A DNA stretch of 64,000 bases, taken from NCBI RefSeq assembly GCF_002090095.1, contig NZ_BBRJ01000002.1:1488817-1552816 (forward strand), in the 5' to 3' direction. Below the pieces are notes generated by a model, which searched no databases, was not told the DNA's origin, and saw only the letters and a list, made by a program, of their open reading frames with translations. The stretch is from Demequina sp. NBRC 110053. Its GTDB lineage: Bacteria; Actinomycetota; Actinomycetes; Actinomycetales; Demequinaceae. Below are positions 3,701-41,186 of the stretch, piece after piece. Position 1 is the first letter of the stretch; each line of letters begins with the position of its first letter. Made by a program: the position numbers and the translations under genes.

Positions 3701-4882
3701 TCCGACGGCGCGTCCGACGGCTGGAACGCGGAGGGTGTCACCGGCACGGTGACGCTCGTCGAGGAGCTGTCCTTCACCGGGACCGTCGAGGCGGCCGCTG
3801 CGCCGGCGATCGACGGCAGCGTCGAGGCCGCCTGGTCGACCGCGAACGCGATCACGACCTCGAAGGCGACCTCTGGCGCCCCCGACGCGGTCGGCACCTT
3901 CCGCACCCTGTGGAAGGACCAGACGCTGTATGTGCTCGCTGAGGTCGATGACCCGGTCATCGACTCCACGGGATCGGACCCGTGGACGCAGGACTCGGTC
4001 GAGATCTACGTGGACGCGGGCAACGCCAAGAACGGCTCGTACCGCTACGACGACACACAGATCCGCATCGGTGCGGACGGAGCCGTCTCGTTCGGCACCG
4101 GCGATGAGGCGTTCCAGGCGAACCGGGTCGACTCGGCCGTCACGGTCGTCGACGGCGGTTACGTGGTCGAGGCGGCGATCAGCCTTCTCGAGTACGGCGG
4201 CCTGGGCAGCTTCCAGGGCCTCGACGTCCAGGTCAACGACGCTGCAGACGGCGCCCGCATCGGCATCGCGAACTGGGCCGACCCCACCGGTGCCGGCTAC
4301 CAGTCCACCGCACGCTGGGGCGTGACCGAGCTGGTCGCCGCCGAGGATGGCGGATCGGGCGGCGATGGTGGCTCGGGCGGCGATGGTGGCTCGGGTGGCG
4401 ATGGTGGCTCGGGTGGCGATGGCGGCTCGGGCGGCGATGGCGGCTCGGGTGGCGACGGCTCCGGCCCGCTCGACGAGGACGAGGTCACGGCCCAGCCCGA
4501 CGGCGGCATCACGGCGCCCGGGTCGGCGCGAGCCGGCGAGACCATCACGATCGGGCTCGGCAGCGACCACGCAGGCGAGGACACCTCCGCCTACATCTAC
4601 TCGGAGCCCACGCTCATCGGCACGCCCACGGCTGATGGCGCGGGTGACATCCGGGTGACGATCCCGCTCGACACGACTCCCGGGCCGCACACCCTCGCGG
4701 TGTACGACGCTGATGGCGCGCTCATCGGATGGGTGTCGATCGAGATCCTCCCCGCTTCGGAGCTGTCCAGCACGGGCGCAGATGGCTACCTGCCGTTCTT
4801 GGTGGCGGCAGCGATGCTCGTGCTGATCGGATCCGCGGCGGTCGCCCGCTCGCGTGCGAAGGTGGCAACCGTGCGCACGTGA
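701..4882 (+). CDS. Secreted multidomain GH10 endo-xylanase with sortase-type C-terminus
   Basis: A 1393-residue extracellular endo-1,4-beta-xylanase. The ATG at 701 follows GGGAG and opens a clear signal peptide (MKLRTRGMALTASLALIATM). Approximate order: three carbohydrate-binding modules of the CBM4_9 type (33-182, 222-365, 375-530), with a Pro-Glu-Gln linker near 192-217; a GH10 catalytic domain (535-870); two CBM9/DOMON-like modules (875-1025, degenerate, and 1030-1205); a GGSGGD repeat linker (1215-1254); an Ig-like domain; and a tail with LSSTG at 1355-1359, a hydrophobic segment and RSRAK. GH10 hallmarks are the acid/base Glu685 in DVVNEV, the nucleophile Glu803 in TELDV, and AENHMKPE and HVLVWHSQTP. 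The tail looks like a variant LPXTG/LAXTG sortase signal, so the enzyme is probably wall-anchored. It is transcribed alone. Confidence 0.93.
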   Translation: MKLRTRGMALTASLALIATMGLASPASTATTVTDLEATFDDESLGGLQQSGGPSPAGEFFTYVADPDDESNTVLQVTDRANDFDGVSTVEGLLDPGIEYTVSARVRLADGVAPTNVKLVQVPGYSTVGSETEVTSSAWTTLTGTLTPSDGSHRVYIGTAPVADDPDTTEIDESATPYSYLVDDVTVTHVEADEEPVDPEQPVDPEQPVDPEEPGEPEVCEPVESVDFEGGSIAPWEANNATVAVEEDGADASNQVAAVSGRTQTWQGIQSAVGAYDEGVQYTFSAQVRLTEAADVRFIANEPGAANEYAWVGNTAGVPAGEWTTITGTHTFGAGASGAKISVEVSTTQDYDVDDITVTAPCDDPDGPPGGTVAFSTDFENGGLDGWEFRDNGTEVPDGAPTPGVELSTDYAASPSHSAAVVNRTSQGHGIRFEVTEALEAGVAYEVTASLRFAEGEEAGDIWMSLQNGAESFSTLAQFTGMSNSDWVTVTGSFTMPAVADGDQAWLYFETAYDGGAAGNTSTFYVDDIAAVVPEPAVIQDLTPIKDTVAFPAGVAIDSRETLGTGAELLLRHFDQVTAENHMKPEAFYNEEQEFVLHPQAVAIMDFAQANDLAVYGHVLVWHSQTPAWFYEAPGGGVLTDSPADQEIAKQRMRDHIFNVAEALHDEYGDFGSETNPLNAWDVVNEVISDSGEFEDGMRRSEWYRILGEEFVDYAFHYADEAFNEVYAAPGTNRPVTLFINDYNTEQTGKRARYQALIERLIERGVPIDGVGHQFHLNLSFPVEELDATLAQLAPLGLEQAVTELDVTTGTPESEAKFIDQGYYYERAFEIFRSYDLYSATIWGLIDSRSWRDANGGPLVFDDGFQAKPAYYGIVGGDLPAPLRTAASFAGDVALDGDAAASAEWDRLPLLPAGADGRFQTRWTSDHLTVFVTVDDATDGAGDGVELVLGETTYTVSRDGSTSDGADAVVTERSGGYDVVAHLPLGGAAESDQVQLDVRTVSDGASDGWNAEGVTGTVTLVEELSFTGTVEAAAAPAIDGSVEAAWSTANAITTSKATSGAPDAVGTFRTLWKDQTLYVLAEVDDPVIDSTGSDPWTQDSVEIYVDAGNAKNGSYRYDDTQIRIGADGAVSFGTGDEAFQANRVDSAVTVVDGGYVVEAAISLLEYGGLGSFQGLDVQVNDAADGARIGIANWADPTGAGYQSTARWGVTELVAAEDGGSGGDGGSGGDGGSGGDGGSGGDGGSGGDGGSGGDGSGPLDEDEVTAQPDGGITAPGSARAGETITIGLGSDHAGEDTSAYIYSEPTLIGTPTADGAGDIRVTIPLDTTPGPHTLAVYDADGALIGWVSIEILPASELSSTGADGYLPFLVAAAMLVLIGSAAVARSRAKVATVRT
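4345..4460 (+). repeat. In-frame GGSGGD linker repeats in the xylanase
   Basis: A run of about six near-identical 18-bp units (ggc gat ggt ggc tcg ggc and variants) encodes a flexible Gly-Ser-Asp linker between the CBM9-like module and the wall-proximal Ig-like domain. Such tracts change length easily by slippage. Confidence 0.85.
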
Positions 4883-5277
4883 GCTCGAGGAGCGGCCGGT
4901 GTGCTCGGCTCGCGTTCCGCAGCGGCCCACCGCGCATCGGGCCGCTCGAGAAGCGCGAATCCCAGGGCGCGGGGAGACAGGGCCCCGCGACCAGGGTGAC
5001 GTACCGGCCGCTCCTCCAGGCACCCGATGAGGGTGTCGCGCGGCCCCGGCGCTTGTGGCGCGCCGGGGCCGCTTCACGTCCGTTCGGGCAGCCGATTACC
5101 GCATCGGCGCCGCCGCCGGTGTGCCAGCTCCTCGAGCCGACGACGCTCTCGAGCCGCCGCAACCCTCCGCGTTCCGGAACCAGTGGTTCACACTGTCGGG
5201 GCGTCGAGGGGCCCGGACGTCGATGTGTGCAGGCGCCGGGGACGGGCGGGTCGCGAGCGGGCCGCTAGGTTGAGCCC
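4883..5277. other. Intergenic region between the xylanase and nadB
   Basis: No gene is supported. The only clear structure is the hairpin at 5041-5071. The nadB -10 box, TAGGTT at 5266-5271, lies at the right end. Confidence 0.6.
5041..5071 (+). terminator. Hairpin terminator after the xylanase
   Basis: A perfect 11-bp GC stem: CGGCCCCGGCG at 5041-5051 pairs with CGCCGGGGCCG at 5061-5071 around a 9-nt loop. There is no T-run, as is common in actinomycetes. It lies about 160 bp after the stop codon. Confidence 0.6.
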
Positions 5278-6972
5278 ATGACCCGCTACGTCCGCCATCT
5301 CGCCGCGCCCGCGCCCGGCTGGACCATCGATGCCGACGTGATCGTGGTCGGCTCGGGGATCGCCGGCCTCACCGCCGCCCTCGAGCTGCGCGCCAAGGTC
5401 GATCGCGTGCTCGTGGTGACCAAGGGCGAGCTCAGCTCAGGGTCGACGGTGTGGGCCCAAGGAGGGATCGCCGCGGCGCTGCACCCCGAGGACACGCCGC
5501 AGGAGCACCTCGAGGACACGCTCACGGCGGGCGCGGGTCTGTGCTCGGAGCAGGCGGTGCGCGCACTGGTCACCGAAGGCCCCGACCGCGTGCGCGAGCT
5601 CGTGGCGCGCGGCGCGAACTTCGACACCGGCCCCGACGGCGACATCACCCTGACCCGGGAAGGCGGACACCACCGCGACCGGATCGCGCACGCGGGAGGC
5701 GATGCGACGGGCGCCGAGATCTCCCGAGCGCTGGTGGCTCAGCTCGACGCGATCCGCAATGACCCCGGCATCGAGGTCATCGAGAACGCGATGGTGGTGG
5801 ACCTGCTGACGGCCGCGCCCGACGGGGACGGGCGTCCCGGGCCCGTGTGCGGGGTCACGCTCCACATCATCGGCGAGGGCTCGCGCGACGGCGTGGGCGC
5901 CGCTCTCGCGAAGTCCGTGATCATGGCGACGGGCGGCATCGGCCAGATCTACCGCTCCTCCACCAACCCCTCGTCCGCGACCGGCGACGGGCTCGCAGCC
6001 GCTCTGAGAGCGGGCGCAGCCGTCGCCGACATCGAGTTCGTGCAGTTCCACCCGACCGTGCTGTGGCAGGGATCGGCCGCGCGCGGCCAGCAGCCGCTGA
6101 TCTCGGAGGCGGTGCGCGGCGAAGGCGCCTACCTGCTGAACGGTGCTGGCGAACGGTTCATGGTCGACCGGCACGCGATGGCGGAGCTTGCGCCGCGCGA
6201 TGTGGTCAGCAAGGGGATCGTCGCGATGATGGACGAGGAGGGCTCGGACAACGTGTTCCTCGACTGCCGCCACCTCGGACGATCCTTCCTGCGCGAGCGC
6301 TTCCCCACCATCTGGGAGCGCTTGGGGGAGCGCGGCATCGACATGGCCGAGGACCTCATCCCGGTCGCGCCCGCCCAGCACTATCATTCTGGCGGCGTGC
6401 TCACCGACCTGCGCGGGCGATCGACGCTGCGGGGCCTGCATGCCGTGGGCGAGGCGGCCTGCACCGGCGTCCACGGAGCCAACAGGCTCGCCTCGAACTC
6501 GCTGCTCGAGGGCCTGGTGTTCGCCTCGCGCGCGGCGACCGACGCCGCCGCGGCCGTCGCGGACGGCACCGTGCGTCAGCTCGAGCCCGTGACCCGTCCC
6601 GGCCCGGCCGCCCTGGTCCCCGCGACCATGCGCGCTCAGGTCCAGTCCATCGCACACCGGGGCGCCGGGCCGGTGCGTACGGGCGCCGGTCTCCTCCATG
6701 CATCCGAACGCCTGGCGGCGCTGCGTGCTCGCTTCCACGATCCGGAGCCCGTGCCCGCGCTCCCTCAGACCGCGGAATGGGAGACGAGCAACGTGCTGAC
6801 TGCCGCATCCGCGGTGGTCGCGACCGCGCTCGCGCGGGAGGAGACCAGGGGAGGGCATCTGCGCGATGACTTTCCCGACAGGGACGATGCGCGCTGGGCC
6901 GTGCGTCTGGCCGCCACCCTCGACGGGGACGGCGAGCTGCAGCTCCAGAGGGCGCCGCTCGAGCTGGGCTGA
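5278..6972 (+). CDS. nadB: L-aspartate oxidase
   Basis: A 564-residue flavoenzyme that oxidises aspartate to iminoaspartate, the first step of de novo NAD synthesis. The FAD-binding GSGIAG is at residues 25-30 after VIVV; the family signatures GGIGQIYRSSTNP, FVQFHPT and HGANRLASNSLLEG follow. Length is normal. TAGGTT at 5266-5271, six bases before the ATG and with no Shine-Dalgarno sequence, suggests a leaderless mRNA. nadC follows after about 250 bp, but nadA, usually next to nadB, is not in this block; the preceding gene is a xylanase. NadB needs NadA to use its unstable product, so nadA should be elsewhere. Confidence 0.95.
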   Translation: MTRYVRHLAAPAPGWTIDADVIVVGSGIAGLTAALELRAKVDRVLVVTKGELSSGSTVWAQGGIAAALHPEDTPQEHLEDTLTAGAGLCSEQAVRALVTEGPDRVRELVARGANFDTGPDGDITLTREGGHHRDRIAHAGGDATGAEISRALVAQLDAIRNDPGIEVIENAMVVDLLTAAPDGDGRPGPVCGVTLHIIGEGSRDGVGAALAKSVIMATGGIGQIYRSSTNPSSATGDGLAAALRAGAAVADIEFVQFHPTVLWQGSAARGQQPLISEAVRGEGAYLLNGAGERFMVDRHAMAELAPRDVVSKGIVAMMDEEGSDNVFLDCRHLGRSFLRERFPTIWERLGERGIDMAEDLIPVAPAQHYHSGGVLTDLRGRSTLRGLHAVGEAACTGVHGANRLASNSLLEGLVFASRAATDAAAAVADGTVRQLEPVTRPGPAALVPATMRAQVQSIAHRGAGPVRTGAGLLHASERLAALRARFHDPEPVPALPQTAEWETSNVLTAASAVVATALAREETRGGHLRDDFPDRDDARWAVRLAATLDGDGELQLQRAPLELG

Positions 6973-7047
6973 TTCGGGGGCGCACCCGCCGGCACGCCGA
7001 GCACGCGGGCGGCGCCCGTGCGCGGTGCGCGCTCGGACGCCGCCTCG

Positions 7048-7089
7048 CGCTCACCCCCCAGCGTTCACCCCTCAGCGTTCACCCCTCGG
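7048..7089. repeat. Three tandem 14-bp repeats between nadB and nadC
   Basis: Three consecutive 14-bp units at 7048-7061, 7062-7075 and 7076-7089 share the form CGTTCACCCCTCAG; the first unit is slightly divergent. They contain GTTCACC, but with a 14-bp period rather than the 11-bp PHO-box period. They could be a regulator binding array or simple tandem duplication. Confidence 0.6.
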
Positions 7090-7146
7090 TGCCGCCTTGC
7101 GGCGGAAGCGTCAGAACTGGCTGCGACTCCGCGGCAAGCCCCTAGT

Positions 7147-7160
7147 GTGACACATGTCAC
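7147..7160. promoter_or_regulatory. Palindromic candidate operator before nadC
   Basis: GTGACA and TGTCAC form perfect 6-bp arms around CA. The site is about 65 bp before the nadC start and overlaps a possible -10 (TAGTGT at 7143-7148). An NAD-responsive regulator such as an NrtR-type repressor would fit the context, but nothing here identifies the protein. Confidence 0.4.
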
Positions 7161-7226
7161 TCCGGCGCGCCTAGTGGTGAGTGGACGGGTCCGCGGATGC
7201 GCCCGACGGGACTACGCTTGTGCGCC

Positions 7227-8132
7227 GTGAGCATGCCAGAAGACCTGCCTCAGGACCGTCCGCTGCGCGCCTCATGGCTCGCCTCCGCCGTGGGTGAGGC
7301 CCTCGATGAGGATCTGGGCGCCGATCCGGGGCGCGACGTCACCACCCAGGCGACCATTCCGGCCTCCGCGCAGGTGAGCGGCGCGATCGTGATGCGCGAA
7401 CCGGGGGTCATCGCCGGCATCCCGGTCATCGCGGAGGCGCTCGGCCAGGTGGCCGAGCGGCTGTCGCTGCCTCAGCCGGTGCTGGAGGTGCGCGCGACGG
7501 ACGGCGACCGTCTCGACGCCGGCGCCAAGGTCGCGGAGCTCTCCGGCGCGGGCCACGTGATCCTCATCGCCGAGCGCACGATCCTGAACTTCCTGTCGCG
7601 TGCCACGGGCATCGCGAGCCACACCCGGCAGTGGGCGGATGCGCTCGAGGGCACGGGCGCGCGCGTGCTGGACACCCGCAAGACCACGCCGGGGCTGCGC
7701 GAGCTCGAGAAGTATGCGGTGCGCGTGGGCGGCGGCGTCAACAAGCGCTCAGGGCTGCACGACTGCGCGATGGTGAAGGACAACCACATCCTCGCGGCGG
7801 GCTCGGTGGGCGCAGCAGTGCTGGCGATCCACGCCCGCTTCCCCGACGTGCCCGTTCAGGTCGAGGTCGAGTCGCGCGAGCAGGCGCGCGAGGCCATCGA
7901 CGCCGGCGCGCGGTTCCTGATGATCGACAACATGGCCCCGGACGCGATGCGCGCACTGGTGCTCGAGGTCCGCGAGCTCGAGCCCGAGGTGGGCCGCATC
8001 CGTCTCGAGGCGACGGGCGGCCTCATCCTCGCCACCGCGCGCGAGGTCGCCAGCACGGGAGTGGACTACATGTCGGTGGGCGCGCTCACCCACTCGAGCC
8101 CCATCGTCGACCTCGCGCTCGACGTGAGCTGA
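7227..8132 (+). CDS. nadC: Nicotinate-nucleotide pyrophosphorylase (carboxylating)
   Basis: A 301-residue quinolinate phosphoribosyltransferase. It converts quinolinate and PRPP to nicotinate mononucleotide, downstream of NadB and NadA. Family signatures are [44 protein letters not shown] and KDNHI. The GTG at 7227 is chosen because TACGCT at 7213-7218 lies eight bases upstream, the leaderless pattern seen throughout this window; an upstream ATG at 7197 would put this promoter inside the gene. The protein ends with the family's usual [10 protein letters not shown] segment. Confidence 0.93.
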
Positions 8133-39042: not shown

Positions 39043-39370
39043 CCCTTGAGCCCCGCGGCGCGCACGCACCCGTCCATCCCACTGGTGCGGGACCAGGGTC
39101 CCGGGTGTGATCCTCGTCACCGCGCGAGACTTGAGGTCATGGGACCGCGTAGGATTCCGTCGTTCCAGGTAAGCAGCGGGTTCGCGCGAGGATCGAAACG
39201 TTCTCGATACCTGGAACCAGAAACCGCGTCATCACCGTCTCGATGCCGCGTCCCATCCTCCGTGGCAGCGCCGGCGTCAGCCTGCCGGGCCCACAGCACG
39301 ATGGCAACCCGTTCCAGGTGTCTCGAATTCGTCGAGCCCGGACGCATGTAGAACAGAGGAAAGAAATACG
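39043..39370. promoter_or_regulatory. Regulatory region of the SipW-type cluster with GTTCCAGGT repeats
   Basis: No gene is seen in these 328 bp. GTTCCAGGT(A/G) occurs three times: direct at 39162-39171, inverted at 39208-39217 and direct at 39311-39320. Between the first two is TCGAAACGTTCTCGA, a near-palindrome. An AAAGAAA-rich ribosome-binding stretch precedes the ATG at 39371. The repeated word suggests a specific regulator, not identified. Confidence 0.5.
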
Positions 39371-39763
39371 ATGGCTCAGAAGAACAACACCCGCAAGCAC
39401 GCGGCGATCGCACTCGGCATCATCGGCATCGCCGGCCTGTCGCTGGCGTCGGCCGCGACGCTCGGCGTCACCGAGGACTCGCCGCTCGTCGGCGTCAGCA
39501 CCGGGGCCGAGTGCGACGACTCCGTCAACGTCGCCTACACGACCGCGTACGGCGCGACCGGCTTCTCGACGACCGGCATCAAGCTCTCCGGCGTCGACGC
39601 CGCGTGCAGCGGCAAGGCCGTCACGGTCTACGTCCTGAACGGCTCGGGCAACCAGATCGGTTCCGCGACGGGCACCCTGAACGCCACCGGCTCGGTCACC
39701 CTGACGCCGGCGTCGCCGATCGTCTCCGAGCAGATCCGCCAGGCCGCGGTCGCGATCTCCTGA
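39371..39763 (+). CDS. Small secreted protein with a SipW-type signal peptide
   Basis: A 130-residue protein. The N-terminus (NNTRKHAAIALGIIGIAGLS, then LASAATLGV) resembles signal peptides cleaved by SipW-like ER-type signal peptidases, as in TasA/CalY-class secreted proteins. The mature part is a Thr/Gly/Val-rich single beta-domain with one Cys pair (AECDD and AACSG) and repeated TG-type turns. It is directly followed by a SipW-like peptidase gene, its likely processing enzyme. A structural surface or matrix role is inference from context; no family name can be given. Confidence 0.7.
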   Translation: MAQKNNTRKHAAIALGIIGIAGLSLASAATLGVTEDSPLVGVSTGAECDDSVNVAYTTAYGATGFSTTGIKLSGVDAACSGKAVTVYVLNGSGNQIGSATGTLNATGSVTLTPASPIVSEQIRQAAVAIS

Positions 39764-39792
39764 CATCGCTTCACCCGTATCGACGACCCCCC

Positions 39793-40377
39793 GTGACCGC
39801 ACTCTCCGAGCGCCGGACCGCCGGCGGCCTTCGTGGCCGCCGGTGGTCTCGCGTGCTCTCGAACGTGCTGGCATGGGGGCTCGTCGGGGTGCTGGCCTAC
39901 TTCGTCTGGCCCAGCAGCCTTGGCGGCGGCACGACGGCCATCGTCGTCAATGGCGAGTCGATGGAGCCGACGTATCACACCGGCGACATCGTGATCGCGC
40001 GCTCCGGCGAACCAGCCGTAGGCGATGTCGTCGTCTACACCTCTGAGGAGCTGGGCGATGGCAAGATCGTCCACCGCGTGATCGGCGGCGACGCGCGCTC
40101 CGGCTGGGTGCTGCAGGGCGACAACAACGACTTCATCGACCCGATCGAGCCCGTGGGCGACGACGTGCTCGGCGTGGCCCGGGTGCACCTGCCGTCCATC
40201 GGCGCCTGGGCCGGCGCCCTGCAGAGCCCGATCGTGTGGGGCAGCCTCCTGCTCGTCGCGCTCGCGCTGCTCATCTGGCCCTCGCGCCCGTGCCCCGAGA
40301 CAGGCGACGCCGAGACACCGGCGCCGGAGTCCGCGGACTCCGCTCGACACGGCGACGCCTCGCGAGCCGGCTCATGA
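39793..40377 (+). CDS. SipW-like (ER-type, S26B) signal peptidase I
   Basis: A 194-residue membrane peptidase. An N-terminal membrane helix (VLSNVLAWGLVGVLAYFVWP) precedes the catalytic NGESMEPTYHTGDIVIA with the nucleophile Ser, and KIVHRVIGG, where His replaces the Lys general base of ordinary LepB. A second helix is near the C-terminus, followed by an acidic tail. This Ser-His form is typical of SipW and archaeal/ER signal peptidases and generally serves dedicated substrates, here probably the neighbouring secreted proteins. The GTG at 39793 is used; the stop overlaps the next start (ATGA). Confidence 0.88.
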   Translation: MTALSERRTAGGLRGRRWSRVLSNVLAWGLVGVLAYFVWPSSLGGGTTAIVVNGESMEPTYHTGDIVIARSGEPAVGDVVVYTSEELGDGKIVHRVIGGDARSGWVLQGDNNDFIDPIEPVGDDVLGVARVHLPSIGAWAGALQSPIVWGSLLLVALALLIWPSRPCPETGDAETPAPESADSARHGDASRAGS

Positions 40378-41186
40378 GTGAGCCCACGCCCCGTCGGACG
40401 CGCACCATGGCGGTGCTCTGCGCGGCTGTCGCCGCGATCGCGGCGCTCGTCGCGAGCTCCGTGACGCACGCCTCCGCAGCGACGCTGAACGTCTCCGGCT
40501 CGGGCATCGTGACCATGACCAATCAGGCCTGCACGACCGCGTCGCTGGCCGCCACGGCGCCCGCCGCCAGCGCCGCGCAGACCACCGTGCGACTCACGGG
40601 CGTGCCCGCGGCGTGCATCGGCACCAGCATCGATGTCGCCCTTCGTGCCTCCAACGGTGCGCGGCTGTCATCCGGCACTCTCACGCCGGCAGCTCAGGGT
40701 CAGAACGCTGTGCCGATGAGCAGCTATGACACGTCCGCCGTCGCGACGGTCGCCGTACTGCTGAACGGGTGGTGGGTGCCGGCGTCATGGACCGCGCCAG
40801 CGCCTCCAGCGGCCTACTCGTGCGTCAGCGTGAACGCTTCGCTGCAGCCCACCGGTGCCCCGTGCACGGTCAATCCCACCGGCCCGTTCGATTCCTACGG
40901 CTCCCCCGGGTCACGACAGGGCCACGGGACCTTCACCGTCACCACGACATCGGCGAACGCGATCGTGTCCCTGAACCTCAACGCGGCACCGTTGCCCTCC
41001 TGGGCGAAGGGTGCGGTCGGGACCAACGGCGACTGGATCAAGGTGCCCGGCTACTCGTGCTCGGAGCTGCCGGTGCTTCGGCTGTATGCCAATCCCTCGA
41101 ACGGCGGGAAGGGCACGCCTGTCTACGTGAGCTTCGCCGAGAGCGCGTCAGCTGCGGTAGGCGGGCGGATCTGCCCCGCGCCCTGA
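40374..41186 (+). CDS. Secreted Cys-paired protein of the SipW-type cluster
   Basis: A 270-residue exported protein with a signal peptide ([19 protein letters not shown]) and a mature part that looks all-beta. Six Cys in the mature part (QACTT, AACIG, YSCVS, APCTV, YSCSE, RICPA) suggest three disulfides. The start ATG overlaps the signal peptidase stop, so the two are translated together; the frame is open upstream but overlaps the peptidase gene. Function is unknown; it is a candidate substrate or assembly partner. Its 3' end overlaps the convergent ung gene by 39 bp. Confidence 0.72.

Follow-up and report, generated by a model that had tools for sequence, protein, structure and literature searches.

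A conserved cassette of an S26B signal peptidase and two homologous exported proteins in Demequinaceae and Cellulomonadaceae, and its possible role in a donor-strand-type surface fibre

A gene for a signal peptidase of the S26B/Sec11 type (P2) lies between the genes for two exported proteins (P1 and P3) in a stretch of 64,000 nucleotides from Demequina sp. NBRC 110053 (contig NZ_BBRJ01000002.1, positions 1,488,817 to 1,552,816; the whole stretch is called the window), which raises the question of what the three proteins make together. The genome carrying the window is 2.5 Mb with 99.75% completeness. An earlier note, made from the sequence alone, had pointed out the three-gene row at 39371–41186, and the open reading frames (ORFs) were confirmed at these positions. 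It had also described the peptidase as translated together with a six-cysteine exported protein, and the P2 stop was indeed found to overlap with the P3 start (ATGA), with six Cys in mature P3. P1-P2-P3 is a real and conserved cassette, undescribed in the libraries searched. On balance, we lean towards the view that the three proteins make and assemble a donor-strand-type surface fibre or adhesive polymer, similar to that of TapA-SipW-TasA, with members of neither the SipW nor the TasA family.

The neighbourhood survey of S26B peptidases that the earlier note had proposed was performed with a P2 alignment, and the best 80 of 188 matches were kept, giving 79 named loci. Fifty-four of these (L061–L113 and L115) were cassettes, from Demequina, Cellulomonas, Actinotalea, Sanguibacter, Cellulosimicrobium, Flavimobilis, Pengzhenrongella, Arthrobacter and further relatives. 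In every one of the 54, a P1 match was present upstream of P2, although in L083, L112, and L113 it was partial or broken. Of the 51 loci in which the contig continues, 50 had a P3- or P1-type exported protein next, the exception being L115, where nothing of P3 but its C-terminal part is present, as a fusion with P2; L112 was frameshifted. The cassette is conserved in Demequinaceae, Cellulomonadaceae and some neighbouring groups. Among 396 genomes of the order, P1 was found in 28 and P2 with at least 100 bits in 32, the next best P2 match scoring 73; all 28 genomes with P1 were among the 32 with P2, and the other four showed a P1-like ORF beside P2 with a broader model. Within the family, P1 was found in 20 of 47 genomes. 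Taking the window and L061–L115 together (56 loci), a DsbA-like gene was located upstream in 25 and ung downstream in 39, which speaks for an old and mostly fixed chromosomal place. Among the proteins of the P2 tree, that of D. aurantiaca was the most similar to the window P2 (64% identical).

Second copies of the cassette, in tandem or nearby, were observed in L070, L091, L093, L107, and L111 (Cellulomonas, Sanguibacter and a Demequinaceae metagenome-assembled genome). Besides, in a Demequina already bearing the main cassette, another S26B peptidase (136 bits) was found together with two more small exported proteins (L196, G007:C8:1410000–1420442, 4883–6471, minus strand). The remaining 25 loci of the survey (L114 and L116–L139) contained a different S26B type, in which the peptidase is the N-terminal part of proteins of approximately 490–790 amino acids (aa) from Blastococcus, Chloroflexota, Acidimicrobiia and others. 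DUF5305 was found behind the peptidase in all four of these tested (under the cut-off in L114), and L116 also contained HD domains.

P1 and P3 were found to be homologous to each other, a relationship absent from the earlier note. BLASTP gave an expectation value (E) of 3e-4, and profile-profile comparison gave a probability of 98.9 (E 3.7e-17) over a region spanning the end of the signal and the whole of mature P1; thus, P3 consists of a P1-like unit and a second domain. In an alignment of the window P3 with 33 of the 56 listed P3-type ORFs (A4; those left out were mostly fused, broken or near-identical), Leu or Met at position 38 and Val, Leu, or Ile at position 40 were present in all 34 sequences, and the signal was only 32% identical, i.e., without the signal conservation seen for P1. 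The AlphaFold2 model of P3 had two well-predicted domains and a poorly predicted segment before Cys53, with a predicted local distance difference test score (pLDDT) of 51 for residues 31–40 and 61 for residues 41–50. Past the point that corresponds to the end strand of P1, P3 contained the near-invariant Trp133 and Trp139 in the alignment and two extra strands in the model, so that the first domain of P3 may be self-closed.

The second domain of P3 differed between genomes. Ricin_B_lectin was found in 2 of the 34 tails scanned (best E 9.8e-22) and a beta-trefoil-like DUF7910 match in one (E 2.3e-7, under the cut-off); for the remaining tails, including that of the window, no match explaining the tail was found. 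No LPXTG-type sorting signal was read at the C-terminus of the window P3. The third gene of L195 encodes a P1-like domain with an LPITG motif, a membrane segment and a basic tail, and scored 15.6 bits with the LPXTG model, just below the cut-off of 15.9. The second domain of P3 is thus interchangeable, as expected of a binding or anchoring end-piece. L193 (4214–7645) and L195 (2784–6115) belong to a sister lineage with a cysteine-free P1-like protein, P2 and a large exported protein; in the fourth genes of both loci, cellulose-binding-like end domains were seen by eye, with no Pfam match.

In P1, the signal was found to be better conserved than the mature domain. An alignment of the window P1 with 53 of the 77 listed P1-type proteins (A3, 54 rows) showed a mean pairwise identity of 65.5% for residues 8–28 compared to 29% for residues 48–130; near-copies aside, the 24 proteins outside A3 were mostly paralogues located farther downstream. 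Ordinary signal peptides show the reverse pattern, the signal not being the better-conserved part, and the conservation of the P1 signal may thus be a sign of specific recognition. Leu31 was present in 54 of 54 rows, Val, Leu, Met, or Ile at position 33 in 53 of 54, and Cys48 and Cys79 were each kept in all 54. P1 and P3 have a cut-site context in common, A-x-A followed by Ala or Ser, any residue, Leu, any residue, and Val or Leu. When P1 is located directly upstream of P2, 52 of 53 proteins had A-x-A-x-x-L/M-x-V/L/I/M with exactly two Cys after it, and the context was found in 62 of the 77 P1-type proteins altogether; the aligned P3 sequences had hydrophobic residues at +3 and +5 in 34 of 34. 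Other signal-bearing ORFs of the flanks, identified with a crude pattern, had Leu or Met at +3 in 0 of 15. The P1 signal had been thought in the earlier note to be SipW-dependent; instead, it has an A-x-A site at its end and a motif specific to the family, and the SipW-type signal motif known from Bacillus is not seen in it.

P2 scored 68 bits with TIGR02228 (cut-off 51.85), was matched by both PF00717 and PF10502 over their cut-offs, and had SEC11 subunits as the closest solved chains by sequence (E 8.5e-6). Ser56, His94, and Asp116 were the same in all 19 rows of alignment A1, one of which is the window; together with the TIGR02228 match, this agrees with the endoplasmic reticulum-type peptidase with a Ser-His dyad described before. 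P2 looks like a dedicated peptidase. S26B signal peptidases may act as generalists, and P2 could then be a general second signal peptidase with unrelated passenger genes on both sides; we regard this as very improbable, given that the genome already contains an ordinary signal peptidase I (140 bits, C3:487545), that P1 co-occurs with P2, and that P2 and P3 are fused in some genomes.

These fusions were found in eight distinct genomes, in which P2 and the whole of P3 form one ORF of 466–535 aa (L052, L054, L075, L076, L081, L100, L105, and L106); the ninth, L115, fuses the C-terminal part of P3. The fused proteins contain two hydrophobic segments, a linker that is often acidic, a third hydrophobic segment and then the P3 part. 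As read from the translations, the eight whole fusions keep an internal A-x-A with Leu at +3, and L115 does not. When L102, L103, and L104, which are truncated at contig ends, and L112, whose assembly is frameshifted, were left out, the fusion label needed four changes on the P2 tree, at least two of which were forced by strongly supported branches; if these four loci were taken as unfused, at least five changes were forced by the tree.

Codon adaptation, computed relative to groEL of the same locus, was 0.734 for P1, 0.489 for P2 and 0.398 for P3 in the window, where groEL itself had 0.79 and P1 would rank third among 53 non-overlapping ORFs. Across the 17 distinct genomes for which groEL was available (28 rows including repeats), the value of P1 was above that of P3 in all 17 and above that of P2 in 16. 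As far as codon usage can indicate, this order is in line with P1 as a major subunit, P2 as an enzyme and P3 as a minor subunit.

Mature P1 was predicted by AlphaFold2 to be an immunoglobulin (Ig)-like sandwich with a disordered N-terminus. The model contained six strands, with pLDDT values of 94–97 in blocks from residue 51 and averages of 47 for residues 31–40 and 62 for residues 41–50, the signal region also being low. In 53 of the 54 sequences of A3, the chain ends 1–3 residues after a conserved Ile in the last strand. The best VIA-align match of P1 had an Ig/fibronectin-like fold (Z 6.7, root-mean-square deviation 2.5, 81 residues), and that of P3 had a Z of 6.0 (root-mean-square deviation 3.4, 91 residues). 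Neither TasA nor a chaperone-usher pilin was among the matches listed by Foldseek and VIA-align, which carries no weight for exclusion, and nothing in a viral structure library matched well (best E 0.0096, TM-score 0.25).

That the two exported proteins fall outside known families, as had been supposed, was supported by searches of Pfam, NCBIfam and PDB sequences, none of which gave a family. No meaningful Pfam or NCBIfam match was obtained for the window P1 and P3, and PDB sequence searches with both proteins and their profiles gave only matches with E above 0.05; the best PDB profile matches, viral fusion-protein fragments (E 0.07), were judged to be due to chance. No homology to a known enzyme was found for P1 or P3 in the libraries searched. 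The remote-homology search and structure prediction suggested by the earlier note ended in Ig-like models with no clear structural match. A scan of genome contigs with P1 alone gave 144 pattern stretches, none of which was confirmed. Searches of the open-licence PMC literature for SipW or donor strands in actinobacteria and for Demequina pili listed no account of this system.

As described in excerpts of one source, the N-terminal donor strand of TasA completes the next subunit to give a polymer, SipW trims TasA and TapA, and the N-terminus of TapA resembles the TasA donor strand (PMC9674648); an excerpt of another describes the Ig fold of TapA as already complete (PMC10151520). As far as these excerpts go, the cassette is like tapA-sipW-tasA of Bacillus subtilis in having an exported subunit, a dedicated S26-type peptidase and an exported accessory protein whose mature N-terminus resembles that of the subunit; the subunits are predicted beta-sandwiches, and the fold of the accessory protein P3 may likewise be complete. 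By analogy, P1 would be made in large amount and exported by Sec, and P2 would cut it after A-S-A to leave a mature N-terminus A-x-L-x-V/L. The freed N-terminal segment, not packed on its own subunit, would supply the strand lacking from the Ig-like sandwich of the next P1. P3 would be made in smaller amount, cut at the same kind of site and carry the same N-terminal segment; with its P1-like domain closed by its own extra strands, it would start or end the polymer, and its variable second domain would be displayed or serve as an anchor, presumably at the cell surface.

The same set of functions, an enzyme of the same superfamily and the weak SipW match of P2 (26.3 bits) would also be expected if the cassette belonged to the classical SipW-TasA/camelysin system as its actinobacterial branch, a reading that we consider improbable. 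The SipW equivalog NF046067 has a cut-off of 190 bits, and P2 was rejected as a member; the surface or matrix system proposed in the earlier note stands as a conserved exported-protein system with its own S26B peptidase, and not as one with a SipW equivalog. Camelysin (PF12389) was found in none of 20 P1 members (E 0.1), in none of 34 P3 members (E 0.01) and nowhere in the genome of the window (E 0.001), with a positive B. subtilis control. In addition, the same genome contains a separate S26B enzyme whose SipW score, 74.9 bits, is higher than that of P2 and likewise below 190. This enzyme, like P2 a TIGR02228 peptidase beside exported proteins, adjoins an exported protein with an AYW-type N-terminus and a ricin-type lectin (L197); P1 showed no similarity to the AYW-type protein (probability 0.3), and the two loci differ in the N-terminus of the substrate as well as in closeness to SipW. 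L197 (G000:C2:802418–812630, near 807 kb, 4698–7656, minus strand) was observed to be a classical SipW-like locus with three RicinB_lectin_2 stretches. The cassette further differs from tapA-sipW-tasA in that P1 and P3 have no sequence match to TasA/camelysin models and are homologous to each other, that the cut site is A-x-A, that the peptidase is outside the SipW equivalog, that P2-P3 fusions exist, and that the presumed major subunit comes first in the operon.

P1 may also be likened to FimA, the type 1 (chaperone-usher) pilin, of Escherichia coli K-12. In both, an N-terminal extension of approximately 20 residues comes before the first Cys and has a Gly at the seventh position ahead of this Cys, and both have a pair of Cys residues and a C-terminus flush with the last strand; the spacing between the Cys residues is 31 in P1 compared to 40 in FimA. 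P1 was rejected as a FimA-type pilin (hhalign probability 2.5, no detectable homology), and the likeness is an analogy. No Pfam fimbrial family was among the matches of 20 P1 members, and a weak NCBIfam MyfA/PsaA match in one of the 20 (E 0.004) was judged to be due to chance. The usher PF00577 had no match in the genome of the window, with a positive E. coli control. The thread filament of Sulfolobus, which differs in being archaeal, is suggested by its literature listing to be a donor-strand filament outside the chaperone-usher pathway (PMC9715654).

P1 and P3 could, on the other hand, be P2-processed secreted or wall-associated adhesins or carbohydrate binders that act as monomers or small complexes and form no fibre. 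Lectin domains occur in some P3 proteins, Ig-like domains are common in non-polymeric adhesins, the VIA-align matches include adhesin repeats, and a P1 polymer is itself deduced. We nevertheless regard this alternative as possible but rather unlikely: no recognised binding module was found when 20 P1 members were compared to Pfam, codon usage predicts more P1 than P3, P1 ends flush with its last strand with its N-terminus unpacked in the model, and P3 shares that N-terminus. Several observations do weigh against the assembly of a donor-strand-type fibre. The conserved residues at +3 and +5 could serve peptidase recognition only, and the cut-site context was found in only 11 of the 24 P1-type proteins outside A3, mostly the downstream paralogues. 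Codon adaptation of P1, near that of groEL in the window, spans 0.44–0.78 and falls to 0.44 in some relatives. Foldseek gave no significant structural match for P1 (best E 0.06) or for P3 (best E 0.007, to an antibody fragment), and the VIA-align Z scores of both are in the range of chance matches among Ig-like and sandwich folds. The P1-like proteins of L193–L195 contain no cysteines, and the disulphide is thus not essential to the wider family. Finally, 27 of the 47 genomes of the family had no P1 match, so that the system is optional.

Three GTTCCAGGT repeats upstream of P1 had been taken as a sign of dedicated control. The copies are real and clustered: all three copies of the window are located at 39162–39319, compared to 0.33 expected. 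In the whole genome, 36 copies were found compared to 26 for the reversed pattern; GTTCCAGGT is thus not rare, and its clustering is the unusual part. Control by GTTCCAGGT was not upheld, as none of 14 upstream regions (the 400 bp before P1), taken from 13 other loci of Demequina and close relatives, contained an exact copy, and GTTCCAGGT was rejected as a conserved operator; a 7-base part was found in 2 of the 14 regions. A promoter-like element, CGTCAT-N18-TCTCA, gave 119 matches in 20 genomes compared to 3 for the reversed pattern. Of the 20 genomes, 16 contain the cassette, and in 12 of these the element was located before P1; its scores were good in Demequinaceae, with hardly any score in Cellulomonadaceae. 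The downstream genes were read for 19 of its 25 matches in four genomes, with Pfam run on one or two of each kind. The element preceded a MerR regulator in two cases, a NIT-sensor-like protein in three, a leucine-rich-repeat-variant (LRV) protein in four and a conserved 250-aa protein in four; the MerR regulator is presumably BldC-like, Pfam giving only MerR/HTH. The cassette thus seems to be part of a small regulon (window 39227–39255 and loci L198–L215), which is probably of the extracytoplasmic function (ECF) sigma type, the type being a guess. The GTTCCAGGT copies flank the promoter-like element and could form a species-specific layer of control. Palindromes similar to TGTGA-N6-TCACA, which we assume to be of the CRP/GlxR type, were observed by eye near the element upstream of P1 in L072, L081, L102, and L105; none was seen by eye upstream of the window P1, where the GTTCCAGGT copies lie. 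The coordinates of all features are listed in Table 1.

Table 1. Coordinates of the P1-P2-P3 cassette and its upstream region within the window
Feature	Position	Strand	Remarks
GTTCCAGGT copy 1	39162..39170	+	
GTTCCAGGT copy 2	39209..39217	-	
Promoter-like element CGTCAT-N18-TCCCA	39227..39255	+	One mismatch from CGTCAT-N18-TCTCA of relatives
GTTCCAGGT copy 3	39311..39319	+	Between promoter-like element and P1
Ribosome-binding-site-like AGAGGAAAG	39355..39363	+	Before P1; read from sequence
P1, small exported protein, probable major subunit	39371..39763	+	130 aa; ORF; aligned with 53 relatives
P1 signal region, residues 1–28	39371..39454	+	Ends in ASA; motif around R-K ... G-x-A-G-L-S-x-A-S-A
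P1 mature N-terminal segment, residues 29–47, candidate donor strand	39455..39511	+	Low pLDDT; conserved residues
P1 Ig-like domain, residues 48–130	39512..39760	+	Cys48 and Cys79; AlphaFold2 prediction
P2, S26B/Sec11-type signal peptidase	39793..40377	+	194 aa; GTG start; TIGR02228 over cut-off
P3, exported protein with P1-like domain and second domain	40374..41186	+	270 aa; ATG start
P3 signal region, residues 1–35	40374..40478	+	Ends in ASA; Ala35 in 34/34 (A4)
P3 mature N-terminal segment, residues 36–52	40479..40529	+	Leu38, Val40; low pLDDT; conserved residues
P3 P1-like, Ig-like domain	40530..40793	+	Extra C-terminal strands (Trp133, Trp139)
P3 C-terminal domain	40806..41183	+	Variable between genomes; 22% mean pairwise identity

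As no Pfam or NCBIfam model except those for some P3 tails scored over its cut-off, the P1/P3 family is invisible to annotation by these libraries. These searches found no precedent for the subunit family, the type of cut site and the peptidase-substrate fusions, and the working principle is known from TasA. More far-reaching, and put forward tentatively as a proposal open to considerable doubt, would be the reading that this is the first donor-strand surface fibre of Actinomycetota, with independently arisen, cystine-bearing Ig-like subunits and their own S26B peptidase, no usher or sortase signal in this species, a homologous self-closed cap with interchangeable lectin or anchor domains, and peptidase-substrate fusions in several lineages. 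If this is true, the fused P2-P3 would be a signal peptidase that cuts itself free of its adhesin in cis. Such natural fusions would allow signal-peptide recognition by S26B enzymes to be studied in one chain. A donor-strand-type fibre made by P1-P2-P3 would extend the Bacillus principle of a dedicated peptidase with a donor-strand subunit to actinobacteria with an unrelated subunit family, and would provide a candidate structure by which Cellulomonas and Demequina attach.

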